64,000 nt of DNA from an uncultured Dehalococcoidia bacterium (lineage in GTDB: Bacteria; Chloroflexota; Dehalococcoidia; Lucifugimonadales; UBA3495). Numbering within the stretch: the first letter of the stretch is position 1; the number at the start of each line of letters is the position of its first letter. Both the position numbers and the translations under genes were made by a program. The stretch is from positions 1,067,029 through 1,131,028 of the forward strand of contig OX638345.1 in assembly GCA_951813535.1 (NCBI GenBank). Reading direction: 5' to 3'. Positions 38,634-59,664 of the stretch are shown here, in pieces. The notes under the pieces were generated by a model. The model saw nothing but the letters and a program-made list of their open reading frames with translations. It made no database searches and was not told where the DNA came from.

Positions 38634-39689
38634 TCACTTGGCGGCGTGGATGGTTCCTGCGAGCCCGTCGGTGATGCGTCCGACCACGGCGGCGCAGGGC
38701 GCTCCCTCCTCGCGGAGGGCGGCCACCAGGGCGTCGGCGCGGGCGGCTGGAACCGACATCAGCAGGCCGCCGGAGGTCTGCGCGTCGCAGAGCAGCAGCC
38801 GGTCCTCGTCGGTCAAACCTTCGTCCCAGGTCACCACGTCCTCGACGCTGCTGAGGTTGCGGTGGGTGCCGCCGGGAGCGACGCCCCGGTCGAGCAGTTC
38901 CCTGGTACCGGCCAGCACGGGAATGGCGCCCAGGTTCACCTCGGCGGCAACGCCGCTGCCCTTGACCATGCTCTTCAGGTGGCCCATCAGGCCGAAGCCG
39001 GTGATGTCGGTCGCCGAGTTGACGCCCACCCGCTGCATGGCCACCGCGCCGGGCTTGTTGAGCGCGGCCATGGTCTGGACGGCGCCGGCCATAACGTCGG
39101 GGTCGACCACGCCCTGCTTGCCGGCGGTGGTGATGATGCCGGTGCCGATGGGCTTGCTGAGGACCAGGACGTCGCCGGGCCTGGCTCCGGCGTTGCTGAC
39201 CTGCTTGCCGGGCTCGACCACGCCGATGACGGACAGGCCGTACTTGGGCTCGGGGTCGTCCACGGTGTGGCCGCCGACGATGAGACACTCGGCCTCGGCC
39301 GCCTTGGCGTAGCCGCCCTGCAGGGTGCGCCCGAGGATTGACTTGTCCAACGATGCGGGGAAGCCGACCACGTTCAGGGCGATGAGCGGCTTGCCGCCCA
39401 TGGCGTAGACGTCGGACAGGGAGTTGGCGGCGGCGATGGCTCCGTACTCATAGGGGTCGTCGGTGATGGGCGGGAAGAAGTCGACGGTGACGATGAGCGC
39501 GGTCTCGTCATTGATGCGATAGACCGCGGCGTCATCGCCGGTCTCCGCACCCACCAGCAGGTCGGGGTGCGAGAGCAGCGGAACATAACTCAGGACCTGG
39601 CCCAGGTCCTCAAGGCTCAGCTTGGCCGCTCAACCCGCGCAGTGGGACAGTTCGGTGAGGCGGATGGGTGGGGTATCGAGTTGGGTCAT
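38634..39689 (-). CDS. selD: Selenide, water dikinase, itself a selenoprotein
   Basis: The frame starts at ATG 39689 (AAAGGAAT upstream) and reads CAG-UGA-AAK at codons 17-23: the UGA at 39632-39630 is codon 20 and occupies the catalytic Cys/Sec position three residues before Lys. SelD makes selenophosphate from selenide and ATP. The rest has GDDAAVYRI, DVYAMGG and GGHTVDDPE, normal for the family. A 7-bp hairpin follows the UGA. Translation from the internal start at 39554 would lack the active site, so Sec insertion is needed. Product 351 residues. Confidence 0.9.
39592..39610 (-). promoter_or_regulatory. SECIS-like hairpin in selD
   Basis: In the mRNA AGGACCU and AGGUCCU form a 7-bp stem with loop GGGCC, starting 19 nt after the UGA. 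Location and G-rich loop fit a bacterial SECIS, which is read by SelB. Confidence 0.65.
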
Positions 39690-51780: not shown

Positions 51781-52881
51781 TCAGCCGCTGCCCGAACCGG
51801 GGGGCTGCTCGGCGCGGGGGCGGCTGATTCGGCCCTTTACTGGTCCAATCCGCCAAACCGTAACGCCACCCCGCGCGTCGAGGGCGGCAAGCCCGTCCCC
51901 GTCAGGCCGCCAGTACAATTCGGCCACTGAGTCCCCCACATCTTCGGCCCCGATCGGGCTGCCGTTTCCGTTTCTCAGTAGCGACCACACAACCACGGCA
52001 CCATCGCGCGCGCCCGATGCCAGGCGCCTCGCGCCGGGCGCGAATGTTAAGGTCGTTATGGGCTCATGATGAAACTCCAGAACGCCGGGCTGCGTGCCTT
52101 CAGGCCCCTTTCTCCGGAAGCTCCAAACCGTGACCGCCTCTCCACCACCGGTGGCCAAAAGGGTGCCGGCGCTATCGAAAGCCAGGGCCGACGGCTTGCC
52201 AGGATATCCTGACATCATGGAGTCCCGTTCCGTGGATCGACGCCAGAAGTGCACCGTGTTGTCCTGGCTACCGCAGACCACGATATCCCCGTTCGGGCTC
52301 AACACCATCGACACCAGGGACCCCTGCCACTCCATTTTCTGGCGAAGCGAGTCGGTGGAAGGGTTGAAGAACGACACTCGGCCGTAACAGGCCGTGGCCA
52401 GCTCATCTGCGCTCGACCAGGCGATGGCGCTGACGGTGCTGGGGTGATCGTCGGACCGCCAGACCTCCGCTCCGTCCGCGTCATACGCACAAACCTGCCG
52501 GGAGCACGAGGCCGCCAACAATTGGCCGTCCGGCGACCACGATACGTTTTCCACCCAACCGCTGCCGACGTCGATAGAACGGGTTACCTGACCTTCGGCG
52601 GCGCTCCAGATCAAGACTCGCCCGTCCTGGCCGGCAGTAGCGAAGGCGGTCCCGCTCGGGTGGATCGCCATCCCGAGCACACCATCTTCATGAACCTTGT
52701 GCCGCTCCCAGACGGCCGCGCCGGATTTGCCATCGAAGCCGTACACGCCACCCTCGGCATCGCCGACCACCAGCGCCTCACCGCCCAAGACCCAACCACC
52801 GGCGATAGCGTAGTCGCCGACCGCCGCAGACCAGCCTCGGTCAAGAACGCCGGTTGGGCTGCCGGCATTTAGATCAGACAT
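51781..52881 (-). CDS. WD40-repeat protein coupled to the CobW GTPase
   Basis: ATG 52881 follows GGGAGGAG and overlaps the 3' end of the cobW-type gene by 13 nt, indicating translational coupling. The 366-residue product has WD40 repeats (DGVLGMAIHPSGTAFATAG, HPSTVSAIAWSSADELATA, GAVVVWSLL) and no signal peptide. WD40 proteins are often found with COG0523 GTPases in zinc-limitation loci and may hold a client metalloprotein. A role in metal delivery is inferred. Confidence 0.8.
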   Translation of the reverse strand: MSDLNAGSPTGVLDRGWSAAVGDYAIAGGWVLGGEALVVGDAEGGVYGFDGKSGAAVWERHKVHEDGVLGMAIHPSGTAFATAGQDGRVLIWSAAEGQVTRSIDVGSGWVENVSWSPDGQLLAASCSRQVCAYDADGAEVWRSDDHPSTVSAIAWSSADELATACYGRVSFFNPSTDSLRQKMEWQGSLVSMVLSPNGDIVVCGSQDNTVHFWRRSTERDSMMSGYPGKPSALAFDSAGTLLATGGGEAVTVWSFRRKGPEGTQPGVLEFHHEPITTLTFAPGARRLASGARDGAVVVWSLLRNGNGSPIGAEDVGDSVAELYWRPDGDGLAALDARGGVTVWRIGPVKGRISRPRAEQPPGSGSG

Positions 52882-54287
52882 GCTTCGAACTCCTCCCGCA
52901 TACTCTGTCCATCGAGGTTGCGGCCGATGAAGACGAGCTGATTGCGCCGGGGCGCGTCCCCCCATTCGCGGTCCGGCTGGCCGTCAAAGAGCATGTGAAC
53001 GCCCTGGAAGACGAAACGACGCGATTCTCCCGCAACACTGATGAAGCCCTTCATTCGGAAGATGTCCACGCCACGCTCGCTGAGCAGTTTGCTAAGCCAC
53101 GCGTTGAGCTTTTGGGGATCGCAGTCGCCGTCTACCTCGATAGAGATCGATCCCACCTCATCGTCGTGCTCGTGCTGGGCGACCCAGGTTCGCTCAGCTT
53201 CGACAGGAACCAGCGCTCCCTTGATGCGTGGTGTCTCCTCTGTGCAGGCCGGCTCGGAGCAAAAATTGCCCCCCAGCTTGAAAGCCTCTCCATCCGCGTT
53301 CTTCAGTTGGAGATCGAATTCCTCCGCGAGGTGCTGGGCATAGAGGCCAACCCGCCCCGGCGCATCAACCTCAAAGAAGAAGGACTTGCGCCCTGGAGAA
53401 TCAAGCCGGAGGCTCACATGCTTTCCGGCAGGAATCTCCTCCCCGGGATGAATGATCTCCGCAGGTTCAGCGTATTGCCGTACACACCACTCGGCGCCCT
53501 CTCGAAGGGCAGCGTCATCCGTGCCCTGGCCCGACACGACGACGAGCGACATCGCCGGATCAGGTCCATCGGCAAGGTTGAGTTCGTAGCGGCCGGTATC
53601 GAGCGAATAGACTCCCGTCCATTCGAAGGGGTACTCCGGCTCGAGGAAAGTGGGACGACGCTCGAGCACCTGGTCCAAGTCGAAGGCGCTGAGGTCGAGT
53701 ACCGTATCGACGGGTACGTTCGCCCGCTCGCTGCGCACGACTCGCGCCATTCGGTTCATGCCGCGGAGGCGAGCTTCCAAACCGTCGAGGGTATCGCCGT
53801 TGACGAGGTCCGTCTTGTTGAGGACGAGAACGTCTGCGAACGCGATTTGCTCCGTGCTTTCGTCGCTTCGGCCGAGCTGCTGCTCGATGTGGGCCGCATC
53901 GACCAGCGTGACGATCCCGTCAAGCGAGTACTCCGCGCGAAGCTCGTCGTCCATGAAGAAAGTCTGAGCGACCGGACCCGGATCGGCCAGCCCCGTGGTC
54001 TCCACCAGCACATAGTCGAACTTGTCGCGGCGCTTGTTGAGATTGTTGAGTACGCGAATCAGGTCTCCGCGCACCGTGCAGCAGATGCAACCGTTCGACA
54101 TTTCGAATACCTCCTCGTCAGCGTTGATGACGAGGGCCTGATCGATGCCGACCTCCCCATACTCGTTCTCGATCACGGCGATGCGCTTGCCGTGCTCCTC
54201 CGTCAAAATCCGGTTGAGCAGGGTCGTCTTGCCAGATCCGAGGAACCCAGTGAGGATGGTGACGGGTACTTTGCGAAACGTGTTCAT
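52869..54287 (-). CDS. COG0523/CobW-type GTPase, metal chaperone
   Basis: A 472-residue GTPase with Walker A GFLGSGKTTLL (residues 14-24), the CxCC metal site CICCTVRGD (about 68-76), Walker B region YVLVETTGLADPG and NKTD. The long C-terminal half carries a HxHDDE segment (QHEHDDEVG) usual for zinc or cobalt transfer. RBS AAAGGAGGACC precedes the start. It is probably cotranscribed with the WD40 gene and regulated by zinc status. Confidence 0.85.
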   Translation of the reverse strand: MNTFRKVPVTILTGFLGSGKTTLLNRILTEEHGKRIAVIENEYGEVGIDQALVINADEEVFEMSNGCICCTVRGDLIRVLNNLNKRRDKFDYVLVETTGLADPGPVAQTFFMDDELRAEYSLDGIVTLVDAAHIEQQLGRSDESTEQIAFADVLVLNKTDLVNGDTLDGLEARLRGMNRMARVVRSERANVPVDTVLDLSAFDLDQVLERRPTFLEPEYPFEWTGVYSLDTGRYELNLADGPDPAMSLVVVSGQGTDDAALREGAEWCVRQYAEPAEIIHPGEEIPAGKHVSLRLDSPGRKSFFFEVDAPGRVGLYAQHLAEEFDLQLKNADGEAFKLGGNFCSEPACTEETPRIKGALVPVEAERTWVAQHEHDDEVGSISIEVDGDCDPQKLNAWLSKLLSERGVDIFRMKGFISVAGESRRFVFQGVHMLFDGQPDREWGDAPRRNQLVFIGRNLDGQSMREEFEACLI

Positions 54288-55951: not shown

Positions 55952-56884
55952 TTAACCAGTTTGCCCGGCTCCGTAGATTCGGCGCGCTCCCGCCTCGGGG
56001 ATCATCCCGGAGAAGAGCTCGGGATGGATCACCTCGGCGAGTATCTCCAGACCGGTAACGAGCCGGGGACCGGACCGGCTGGTGTAGTTGCTGGCGTCGA
56101 TCACGTACACACGATCGTTCTGCACTGCCGGCAGGGAGGCCCATCCCTCTTTTTCGGTGAGCAGCGGGAGGTCCTCCATGGCCCGGGGGACCTCAAAGCC
56201 ACACGGCATGACCACGATCACCTCCGGTTGGCTCTCGACGACCGCGTCCCACTCCAGCGGGAAAGAACCCATCTCCTTGTCGCCGAAGGAGTTGGTTCCC
56301 CCGGCGAGTTCCACCATTTCCGGGACCCAATGGCCGCCGCACATCAGCGGATCGGTCCATTCCAGGTGCAGTACCCGTGGATGGTTGTCGGCCAACGCGG
56401 CGCGCTGGGTCACAGCATCGATACGACCCTGCATCCGGGCTGTGACCTGCTCGGCAACGGATTCGGAGGCCGTGGCGCGGCCCACCCGGCGCACGTCTTC
56501 CAGCACGTCGCCAAGGTATTGGGGATCCAGCGAAATAACCTCGGGCTGCTTCTCCATGTTGGCGGTGGACTCGGCGACCTGCCGAGAGGACACCGCTCAA
56601 ACCTCGCAGATGGCCTGGGTCAGCAGCAGATCGGGGTTGGCCGCGTCCAGTATCTCCTGGTCGATGTGATAGATGCCGAGACCCTCGGCCAGCCGCTCGG
56701 ATATCACGCGGCTGATCTCGCCACTGCTGGGTTGTGTGCCCTCGAAAACGCTGCGGACCACCCAAGGCTTGTTTTTGGCCTGGGCCGGGTAGTCGCACTC
56801 GTGGGTCACGCCGTAGAGTTGGTCCTCCAGCCCCAACGAGTAAACGATCTCGGTGGCGGAGGGGAGAAATGAACAAATTCGCAT
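55952..56884 (-). CDS. BtuF-like substrate-binding protein with selenocysteine
   Basis: The frame from ATG 56884 reads MRICSFLPSATEIVYSLGLE and continues through an in-frame UGA (56599-56597, codon 96) in QAIC-EV-UGA-AVSS to a stop at 55952. The usual homologues have CDVCAVS here, with the second Cys replaced by Sec. Family: periplasmic-type cobalamin/iron binding proteins (COG0614), but no signal peptide is present, so it is probably cytoplasmic. No permease or ATPase is adjacent. It follows the CPA2 antiporter in the same direction. Product 310 residues with Sec. Confidence 0.85.
56570..56586 (-). promoter_or_regulatory. SECIS-like hairpin in the BtuF-like gene
   Basis: In the mRNA CUCGGC-AGGUC-GCCGAG starts 10 nt after the UGA. 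The E. coli fdhF SECIS has an AGGUCU loop at an 11-nt distance, so both sequence and position agree. Confidence 0.8.
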
Positions 56885-56940: not shown

Positions 56941-58935
56941 CTAATCCGCCTCCCGCTGGGCGGCCGGTTCCGCGCCTTCAGCCGGTGGCGCTGGTGCCGG
57001 GCTGAAAAGCTCGATGCGTTCCTCCAGGAAACGCCACAGGTCTTCGGTCGAGTCTTCGTCGGCCTGGGCGGCGGCGGCGCGCACCTGCTGGACCGGTTGC
57101 GCGTCCGGGTCGGCCCAGTGGTTGAAGGCCGGGCTCTCGACGTCCATTGCCTCGAAGGCGCTGGAGACTGGCGGATCGGTACGTCGGGGAGCCGGCGGAG
57201 CAATGAACGTGTTGCGGAAAACTGGTCGCAGGACGCGGTGAACGTGGAAGCCGGCAAACACCAGGGCGCCGGCTGAAGCCAGGAGCAGGAACAGGGACAG
57301 CGGAACCGACAGGCTTCCCAGAGAGAACAGCTGGATTATCAGGGGGATCATCAGCAGGACGCCGACGAGCAAGAAGGCTGTGGCCATTCCGTCGCGCAGC
57401 AACGTGCGCAGGGTGTATCGCGCCGGCTGACCCGCGGTATCACGCACCGTCGCGCGAACAGTGAGGCTGGCGACCACCCGCAATTCACGCCAGATGGCAA
57501 TGGCGGCCGGCAGGTTGATCCCCACCGTGGCGCCGCCGAGGATTACGCCCAACAACGCATGGGACACCGAATCGGGATCGGCCAGCAGGTCGGGCAGGGT
57601 GTACACCGCTGCGGTGCCTATGGCGGTTAGCACCGCAATGATGCAGATGTCAATGATGATGCGGCGAACCGAGTTTTTCAGCAGGCGTCCAGTCTCCCCG
57701 GGGAGGGAGAACGCGGCCCAGAACGACTGTATGCCCAGGAAGATGACCAAGTTGACGGCCAGGACGGCCGGCGGGGCGCGGCGCTCCAACCAGTCGTAAG
57801 TGGGCGTCGCGATCTTCGAGGTCAGTGGGGCGAATACTGCCGTGATCGCGGTGGCGATTGCCAGCACTGGCGCTACTACGGGGCCGACCGCCGCGTTGGT
57901 GGCGCTGAGATGACCGATCGCCAGCGAAAACTCGCCCATCTGCGGCATTGTCATACCGACCTGCGCCGCGGTGCGCGACCGGCGTCCCGCCAGTACCGCC
58001 CCTATGGTGTTGGCCACGATCTTGCCGCCCATGAACACACCCACCACCACCAGGGCCGGCACGATGTGGTCGTCCAGCGTTCGATAGTCGATCAGCATCC
58101 CGATGGAGAGGAAGAACAGCGCGCCGAACATGTCGCGCACCGGGTTGACGAGCCGCGTGACCCGGCCGGCCGCGTCGGTGTCACCGATAACCACGCCGAT
58201 CAGGAAAGCGCCGGCCGCCGCCGACAACCCGAGAAACTCAGCTCCCAACGCCAGTCCGAAGCAACAGCCCAGCGAAGCCACCAGGAGAGTTTCATCGGAT
58301 TGCATCCGCGAGAGGAAGCGCATCAGGCGGGGCGCCAGCAGCGCGCCGAAAGCCAGGGCCGCGATGCAGAAGATGCCCAGCTTCGCAGCCAACCACCCCA
58401 CGTCCGCCAGGTCGGTGGAACCCGTGGTCGCAAGCCCGGCCAACAGGGTCAGCAGGATGACCGCGGCAAAGTCTTCCACCAGGAGGATGCCAACGATGGT
58501 TTGCCCCCATCCGGAGCGGAGGTTGCCGCTGTCCCGCAAACCCTTCAGCAGTATCGCCGAACTGCTAATGGCCATGGCGCCGCCCAGGTACAGGGCGTTA
58601 GCCCCGGAGATGCCCAGGACTTTGTCAGCGATCAGCACACCCAGGTAGGTCAAGGTGGAGATCTCCACGACGCCGATTACCAGCACTCGCAGACCGATTT
58701 CCCGGATACGCCGCCAGCCCAACTCCAGGCCGATTCCGAACAGCAGGAGTATGAGCCCCAGCTCGGCAAGTAACTCGATGGTGTCCAGATTACTGATCAC
58801 CGGGTGCGGCAGAGTGTACGGCCCAATCAACAACCCGGCGATGAGATAACCGAGTACGGGCGGTTGCCAGACGAGACGGGCCAGCGCCAGCCCTACGGCG
58901 GCGATGGCCATCGCGATGGCAAAGTCTTTCAGCAA
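56941..58935 (-). CDS. CPA2-family cation/proton antiporter
   Basis: A 664-residue membrane protein with about 12-13 transmembrane helices, the CPA2 signature LLGYLIAGLLIGP-like (PPVLGYLIAGLLIGPYTLP), and the conserved Glu/Asp helix VGILLVEDFAAVILL. The acidic C-terminal tail after residue 560 is soluble. These exchange K+ or Na+ for protons (KefB/NapA-like). The BtuF-like gene begins 56 nt downstream on the same strand. Confidence 0.85.
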   Translation of the reverse strand: MLKDFAIAMAIAAVGLALARLVWQPPVLGYLIAGLLIGPYTLPHPVISNLDTIELLAELGLILLLFGIGLELGWRRIREIGLRVLVIGVVEISTLTYLGVLIADKVLGISGANALYLGGAMAISSSAILLKGLRDSGNLRSGWGQTIVGILLVEDFAAVILLTLLAGLATTGSTDLADVGWLAAKLGIFCIAALAFGALLAPRLMRFLSRMQSDETLLVASLGCCFGLALGAEFLGLSAAAGAFLIGVVIGDTDAAGRVTRLVNPVRDMFGALFFLSIGMLIDYRTLDDHIVPALVVVGVFMGGKIVANTIGAVLAGRRSRTAAQVGMTMPQMGEFSLAIGHLSATNAAVGPVVAPVLAIATAITAVFAPLTSKIATPTYDWLERRAPPAVLAVNLVIFLGIQSFWAAFSLPGETGRLLKNSVRRIIIDICIIAVLTAIGTAAVYTLPDLLADPDSVSHALLGVILGGATVGINLPAAIAIWRELRVVASLTVRATVRDTAGQPARYTLRTLLRDGMATAFLLVGVLLMIPLIIQLFSLGSLSVPLSLFLLLASAGALVFAGFHVHRVLRPVFRNTFIAPPAPRRTDPPVSSAFEAMDVESPAFNHWADPDAQPVQQVRAAAAQADEDSTEDLWRFLEERIELFSPAPAPPAEGAEPAAQREAD

Positions 58936-59202: not shown

Positions 59203-59664
59203 CTACGCTGCGCGGCCGGCGTGCTTCTGGCGCGACTCGGCGACGAACTCGGCGGTGACGGAAGTGCTGGGGGTCGCCACGGCGACCGAACCATAGAGGG
59301 GTCAACGCTTCTTCCACGTATCGACCAGATAGTTGCCCTGGTCGTCGTCCACGCCCCAGATCTTGAAATGGATGCGCACATCGGCGTAAAGGCTGACGTC
59401 ACTGGGGGTTGCTTCCGGATCCCTGAAGGCCTCGGCGGTTACTTCCATGAAGTCCACCGGAGCGTCGTCAGTCAGGGCGATGCGCTCCACCATGTTGACG
59501 GCGCAGGCGGTGATGCCGGAGAGGAACAACTCCCCGGCTCCGACCGCATCACCGCCGCCGTCATCGGCAACCCAGTGATGCGTGCGGGCGTTGCAGATTG
59601 CCCTCCCGTGGGTTCCCGAGCTGTACGTTTCCACGTGATAGGCCATTTCCAATGCAGCCATCAT
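59203..59664 (-). CDS. OsmC-family peroxiredoxin with selenocysteine
   Basis: ATG 59664 begins a 153-residue frame: FLSGITACAVNMVERIA carries the first active Cys, and an in-frame UGA at 59304-59302 (codon 121) is followed by PLYGSVAVATPSTSVTAEF to a TAG at 59205-59203. Homologues have RCPLYG-type sequence at this place, so the UGA takes the place of the second, resolving or peroxidatic Cys. OsmC proteins reduce organic hydroperoxides. Sec-containing OsmC-like proteins are a known selenoprotein family. Confidence 0.85.
59272..59287 (-). promoter_or_regulatory. SECIS-like hairpin in the OsmC gene
   Basis: GGUCGC-CGUG-GCGACC hairpin starts 14 nt after the UGA in the mRNA. Position and G-containing loop fit a bacterial SECIS. 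Confidence 0.7.

Follow-up and report, generated by a model that had tools for sequence, protein, structure and literature searches.

An OsmC/Ohr-fold protein with a predicted selenocysteine at the second active-site cysteine position in a marine SAR202-type Chloroflexota

Does the UGA that interrupts an OsmC-family gene of an uncultured Dehalococcoidia bacterium end the protein, or does it encode selenocysteine (Sec) at the second of the two active-site cysteines? The gene lies in a stretch of 64,000 nucleotides, here called the window, which covers positions 1,067,029-1,131,028 of a genome made up of one contig of 4.38 Mb; among named relatives the nearest, with a 99% identical protein, is a SAR202 cluster MAG, and the host is a marine SAR202-type member of the Chloroflexota. 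The coding sequence occupies 59203..59664 on the minus strand, from an ATG at 59664 to a TAG at 59205-59203, and its translation, supported by Pfam, orthologues and an AlphaFold model, gives 153 residues with Sec at 121. The UGA (codon 121, 59302..59304) coincides with the second, resolving Cys of OsmC/Ohr proteins, in the context K-K-R-UGA-P-L-Y-G, and is followed by 32 further codons; the first (peroxidatic-type) Cys, Cys54 of the central helix, is encoded at 59503..59505 on the same strand. The protein reads MMAALEMAYHVETYSSGTHGR...LSGITACAVNMVERIA...WKKR-UGA-PLYGSVAVATPSTSVTAEFV..., and in a profile search the OsmC family PF02566 spans the UGA, covering residues 36-130 with 35.7 bits, above the cut-off of 27.5. 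An earlier note on this DNA had pointed out the OsmC frame, its UGA in R-UGA-PLYG and the 32 codons beyond, all of which are present on the minus strand; the name peroxiredoxin that it gave to the product is a misnomer, OsmC/Ohr being a separate peroxidase fold.

Comparison with relatives speaks for decoding of the UGA. The gene was found in 53 of 147 relatives, with an in-frame TGA in every one, and in all 51 order-level orthologues that were read the UGA is in register, directly before PLYG, PIYG or PLYK, which excludes its occurrence by chance. Among 80 named loci from several phyla, a set partially overlapping with those 51, the position is TGA in 78, TGC in one and TGT in one. A search for Cys at this position in relatives, which had been suggested as a check, returned it in L118 (TGC), L119 (TGT), L168, L185, L187 and L189, the first two from Acidobacteriota and the others from Chloroflexota; these Cys forms belong by sequence to the same subfamily, and in the absence of the UGA they have also lost the apical GU of the hairpin described below and a Val-Ala-Val stretch. 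On a tree built from 125 columns at least six changes between Sec and Cys are required, of which well-supported branches force only two. The tail past the UGA, which would be unrelated to OsmC if the proposal were wrong, is OsmC-like and conserved, and within the genus codons +12 to +28, beyond the hairpin, have a dN/dS of 0.11-0.17 with third positions varying most; by this pattern of substitution, purifying selection acts on the reading frame past the UGA.

The hairpin GGUCGC-CGUG-GCGACC, noticed earlier 14 nt past the UGA, is found at 59287-59272 (59272..59287 on the minus strand, apical GU at 59280-59279) and has the form of a bacterial SECIS stem-loop. Folded as a single sequence, the region is only moderately better than its shuffles (z -1.5), so the hairpin alone proves little and comparison carries the case. 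Numbering starts with the U of the UGA as 1; on this count the stem is formed by 18-23 and 28-33, and a further pair, 24-27, closes the loop that holds the apical GU (25-26). Across 93 distinct sequences the six stem pairs are standard in 100%, the apical pair 24-27 in 99%, and the GU is present in 93/93. Corrected mutual information, compared for every pair of columns between 4 and 60, is highest for three pairs, 24-27 (CG, GC and AU), 18-33 (GC, CG, AU and UA) and 21-30 (CG and UA), for which 11, 5 and 4 double substitutions, respectively, were counted on the protein tree. Pair 24-27 joins the third bases of an Ala and a Val codon and hence covaries silently, and synonymous change is halved in the SECIS stretch (pS 0.25 against 0.49 upstream). 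Judged by this covariation, the hairpin is a SECIS element. Rfam at gathering thresholds reported only tRNAs across the whole window.

Could the UGA nevertheless be a real stop, giving a 120-residue product followed by a decaying or untranslated tail? Translation table 11 formally closes the frame there, and Sec insertion is often in competition with termination. Against this, the UGA, the frame past it and the covarying SECIS are all conserved across several phyla, which makes a plain stop very hard to believe. We consider instead that the gene almost certainly encodes a real selenoprotein with Sec at codon 121; the earlier proposal, which put Sec at the second of the two active-site Cys residues of an OsmC protein, has strong support, the OsmC match, the orthologues and the Cys-containing relatives being in agreement.

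The genome also carries what Sec insertion demands. Matches were obtained for selA (542 bits), selB (354.8 bits) and selC, a tRNA-Sec with a UCA anticodon (66.4 bits), and selD, encoding selenophosphate synthetase, lies in the window itself (38634..39689, minus strand) and contains Sec in its turn, at codon 20 (39632) in CAGUAAK; SelD with the motif UxxK is listed among known selenoproteins (PMC13188914). This selD closes with a UGA as a true stop, so that both meanings of UGA occur inside one gene. Within the order SelB exceeded the cut-off in 130 of 147 genomes, and its co-occurrence with the OsmC gene is for that reason of little weight there; it was not found in 4 of the 53 genomes with the gene, all four being drafts that are 73-85% complete. 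Of 20 tested genomes with Sec forms from various groups, 19 had SelB above the cut-off and the 20th a match of 229 bits. Both Acidobacteriota genomes with Cys forms have SelB, thus their Cys did not arise from loss of the whole system. A further alternative is a genome-wide reassignment of UGA, or its reading by some other tRNA, without selenium; no support for it was found, and it is contradicted by the complete Sec machinery and by the linkage of the recoded UGA to a SECIS. Since UGA doubles as a normal stop, at the end of selD in the window and in the same-genus orthologue L015, we regard this reading as excluded for practical purposes, with even less to be said for it than for the plain stop.

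The contrast between Sec and Cys forms provides a natural control on how far the hairpin shapes the protein. Residues +6 to +8 after Sec are Val-Ala-Val in 101/101 Sec forms and in 0/9 Cys forms, a small sample of partly non-independent members which includes the in-family L118, L119, L168, L185, L187 and L189 as well as the distant L162, L191 and L192. The Cys forms show VAA twice, LAA, LSK, VVK, VAQ and others at these places. That the stretch is kept in Sec forms and absent in Cys forms is best explained by RNA rather than by protein function, and it appears from these alignments that the SECIS RNA dictates a Val-Ala-Val stretch in the protein.

The AlphaFold model of the protein (pLDDT 89.5) was compared with known structures, and its best 33 matches are all OsmC/Ohr, with Z scores of 10-15 and up to 14.8. 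The model places Cys54 inside helix 43-65, and residue 121 falls at the junction of helices 107-120 and 122-130. Both positions are invariant in alignment A2, as are R21, E45 and Pro122, and Cys54 is present in 100/101 Sec forms, the single exception being a truncated match. The fold is shared with Ohr of Xylella fastidiosa (4XX2) and P. aeruginosa (1N2F) at Z about 11-13, and the two active-site residues follow the same order on the helices; however, identity is about 12-19%, Sec takes the place of Cys125 and the NPEQLF motif is missing. R21 and E45, possible counterparts of the catalytic Arg19 and Glu51 of Ohr, do not align with them in exact register, the invariant E45 being 9 residues before Cys54 whereas Glu51 is 10 before Cys61. 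According to the model, the protein is a member of the OsmC/Ohr fold that has both active-site positions, with Sec replacing the second Cys.

The Ohr cycle starts with attack on the peroxide by the N-terminal Cys, which sits on the central helix; the C-terminal Cys then resolves the product as a disulfide, for which lipoylated proteins are the reductants (PMC5962072). In the window gene, as sequence comparison supports, SelB with Sec-tRNA(UCA) would bind the stem-loop via its invariant apical GU and the ribosome would read UGA 121 as Sec, which would replace the C-terminal resolving Cys of OsmC/Ohr, the N-terminal Cys54 being retained. Family membership suggests that the product is most likely a dimeric organic-hydroperoxide reductase in which Cys54 would attack an organic peroxide and Sec121 would resolve the Cys54 sulfenic acid to a Cys54-Sec121 selenenylsulfide, to be reduced by a thiol donor such as the lipoylated proteins that serve Ohr. 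Selenium at the resolving position would quicken resolution and recycling and would guard Cys54 against over-oxidation. We lean towards this division of labour, in which Cys54 attacks and Sec121 resolves. Selenoperoxidases usually carry Sec at the attacking position, and this, together with the invariance of Sec121 and Pro122 in A2, would suit reversed roles, with Sec121 attacking the peroxide and Cys54 resolving. However, the peroxidatic residue of Ohr is its N-terminal central-helix Cys (PMC5962072), the subfamily of the window protein retains Cys54, its helix and the invariant R21 and E45, and the other Sec-OsmC kind, with motif UxxT, has Sec on the first Cys; role reversal, the main rival, is thus rather unlikely.

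That other kind was reported in 2005 and 2008 (PMC1088965, PMC2398784). The statement in the earlier note that Sec-containing OsmC-like proteins are known from metagenomes holds in that such proteins exist, but they are of this UxxT kind. Both kinds have the OsmC fold with Sec in the active-site pair; the UxxT kind, modelled as NF041052 (OsmC_like_Se), has Sec at the first Cys, where the window protein has the ordinary Cys54, with its own Sec at 121. The same genome encodes a UxxT-kind protein, L002 (1324-1851 of its locus, G000:C1:1408682-1409209, plus strand), which reads SSIAF-U-EMT, has Cys at NGCWV and matches NF041052 with 159.5 bits; the window protein scores 16 bits, below the curated cut-off of 95. 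As U78 of L002 aligns with Cys54, the two kinds carry Sec on different residues of the Cys pair, and the two proteins are mirror images within one genome. A third OsmC-family gene, L001 (G000:C1:4171835-4172143, plus strand), has Cys at the first position only; the ORF after it has the look of a rhodanese sulfurtransferase.

An inventory of 2026 counts 119 families and subfamilies of prokaryotic selenoproteins, sets up a separate subfamily when the position of Sec differs, and holds a single OsmC entry, UxxT (PMC13188914). Its AhpD-like CxxU and Prx-SUH CxxU proteins likewise have Sec at the second redox residue, but they are of other folds with the pair adjacent in sequence, whereas in the window protein the pair is 67 residues apart. 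The literature searched, mostly without subscription papers, contained no description of Sec at the second Cys of OsmC, an unlisted GenBank annotation being possible, and the arrangement is apparently an undescribed subfamily. It is missing from both the inventory (PMC13188914) and NCBIfam despite its wide spread among phyla; standard annotation would end such genes at the UGA, and databases thereby lose the second redox residue. A single fold now offers Sec at either of its Cys positions, with Cys forms interspersed among those with Sec, and so allows a direct test of what Sec contributes at each position of a peroxidase.

By the titles of MAG records, Sec forms occur in Chloroflexota (SAR202/Dehalococcoidia and other classes), Acidobacteriota, Pseudomonadota (Betaproteobacteria), Myxococcota and Candidatus Binatota (from records titled Deltaproteobacteria or Binataceae), Actinomycetota and Armatimonadota. 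On these titles, where mis-binning may affect single records, the second-Cys arrangement is present in at least seven bacterial phyla. No match to a betaproteobacterial member was obtained in the PLSDB plasmid collection.

The minus-strand order in the window is the Sec-OsmC gene, an antiporter gene and a BtuF-like gene. The antiporter, of the CPA2 family (KefB/KefC-like cation:proton antiporters), is co-directional and downstream (56941..58935, minus strand; start codon uncertain) and scores 159.5 bits against NCBIfam TIGR00932, below the cut-off of 238.3. The BtuF-like gene (55952..56884, minus strand) has an in-frame UGA at codon 96 (56599) in CEVU, a catalogued selenoprotein type, BtuF CxxU (PMC13188914). 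Together with Sec-OsmC and selD it makes up the three Sec genes within 21 kb that had been noted before, and all three are there at the sequence level. Within the SAR202 group, the antiporter neighbours Sec-OsmC at 19 loci and the BtuF-like gene does so at 31; outside this group neither was seen beside it, and a search for conserved neighbours there found hardly any. A function shared by the three is possible.

The antiporter adjoining the gene in 19 loci also bears on whether the protein is a peroxidase at all, as the Cys-Sec pair might act as a general oxidoreductase or a metal/electrophile binder, perhaps with the KefB/KefC-like antiporter. OsmC is a broad family, and for FTN_1133, a relative involved in hydroperoxide resistance, a lack of thiol peroxidase activity has been reported (PMC4069020). 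Essentially every member nevertheless retains the two active-site positions of the peroxidase fold, and we judge a selenoprotein of non-peroxidase function improbable, more so than role reversal. The reading that best explains the whole, an OsmC/Ohr-fold selenoprotein with a SECIS-read Sec121 and a Cys54-Sec121 peroxidase cycle, is in our view quite probable, on the strength of alignments and of analogy with Ohr. A further-reaching version, in which an uncatalogued, widespread subfamily has Sec and Cys swapped, SAR202 holds both mirror forms, Sec attacks or gives OsmC new chemistry, and the SECIS fixes three residues that are freed on loss of Sec, is doubtful as a whole and may be entertained tentatively. 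Elsewhere in the window, a CobW/YjiA-type GTPase gene (52869-54287, minus strand) also matches NF041053, the model of a CobW-related selenoprotein, with 71 bits against a cut-off of 180.
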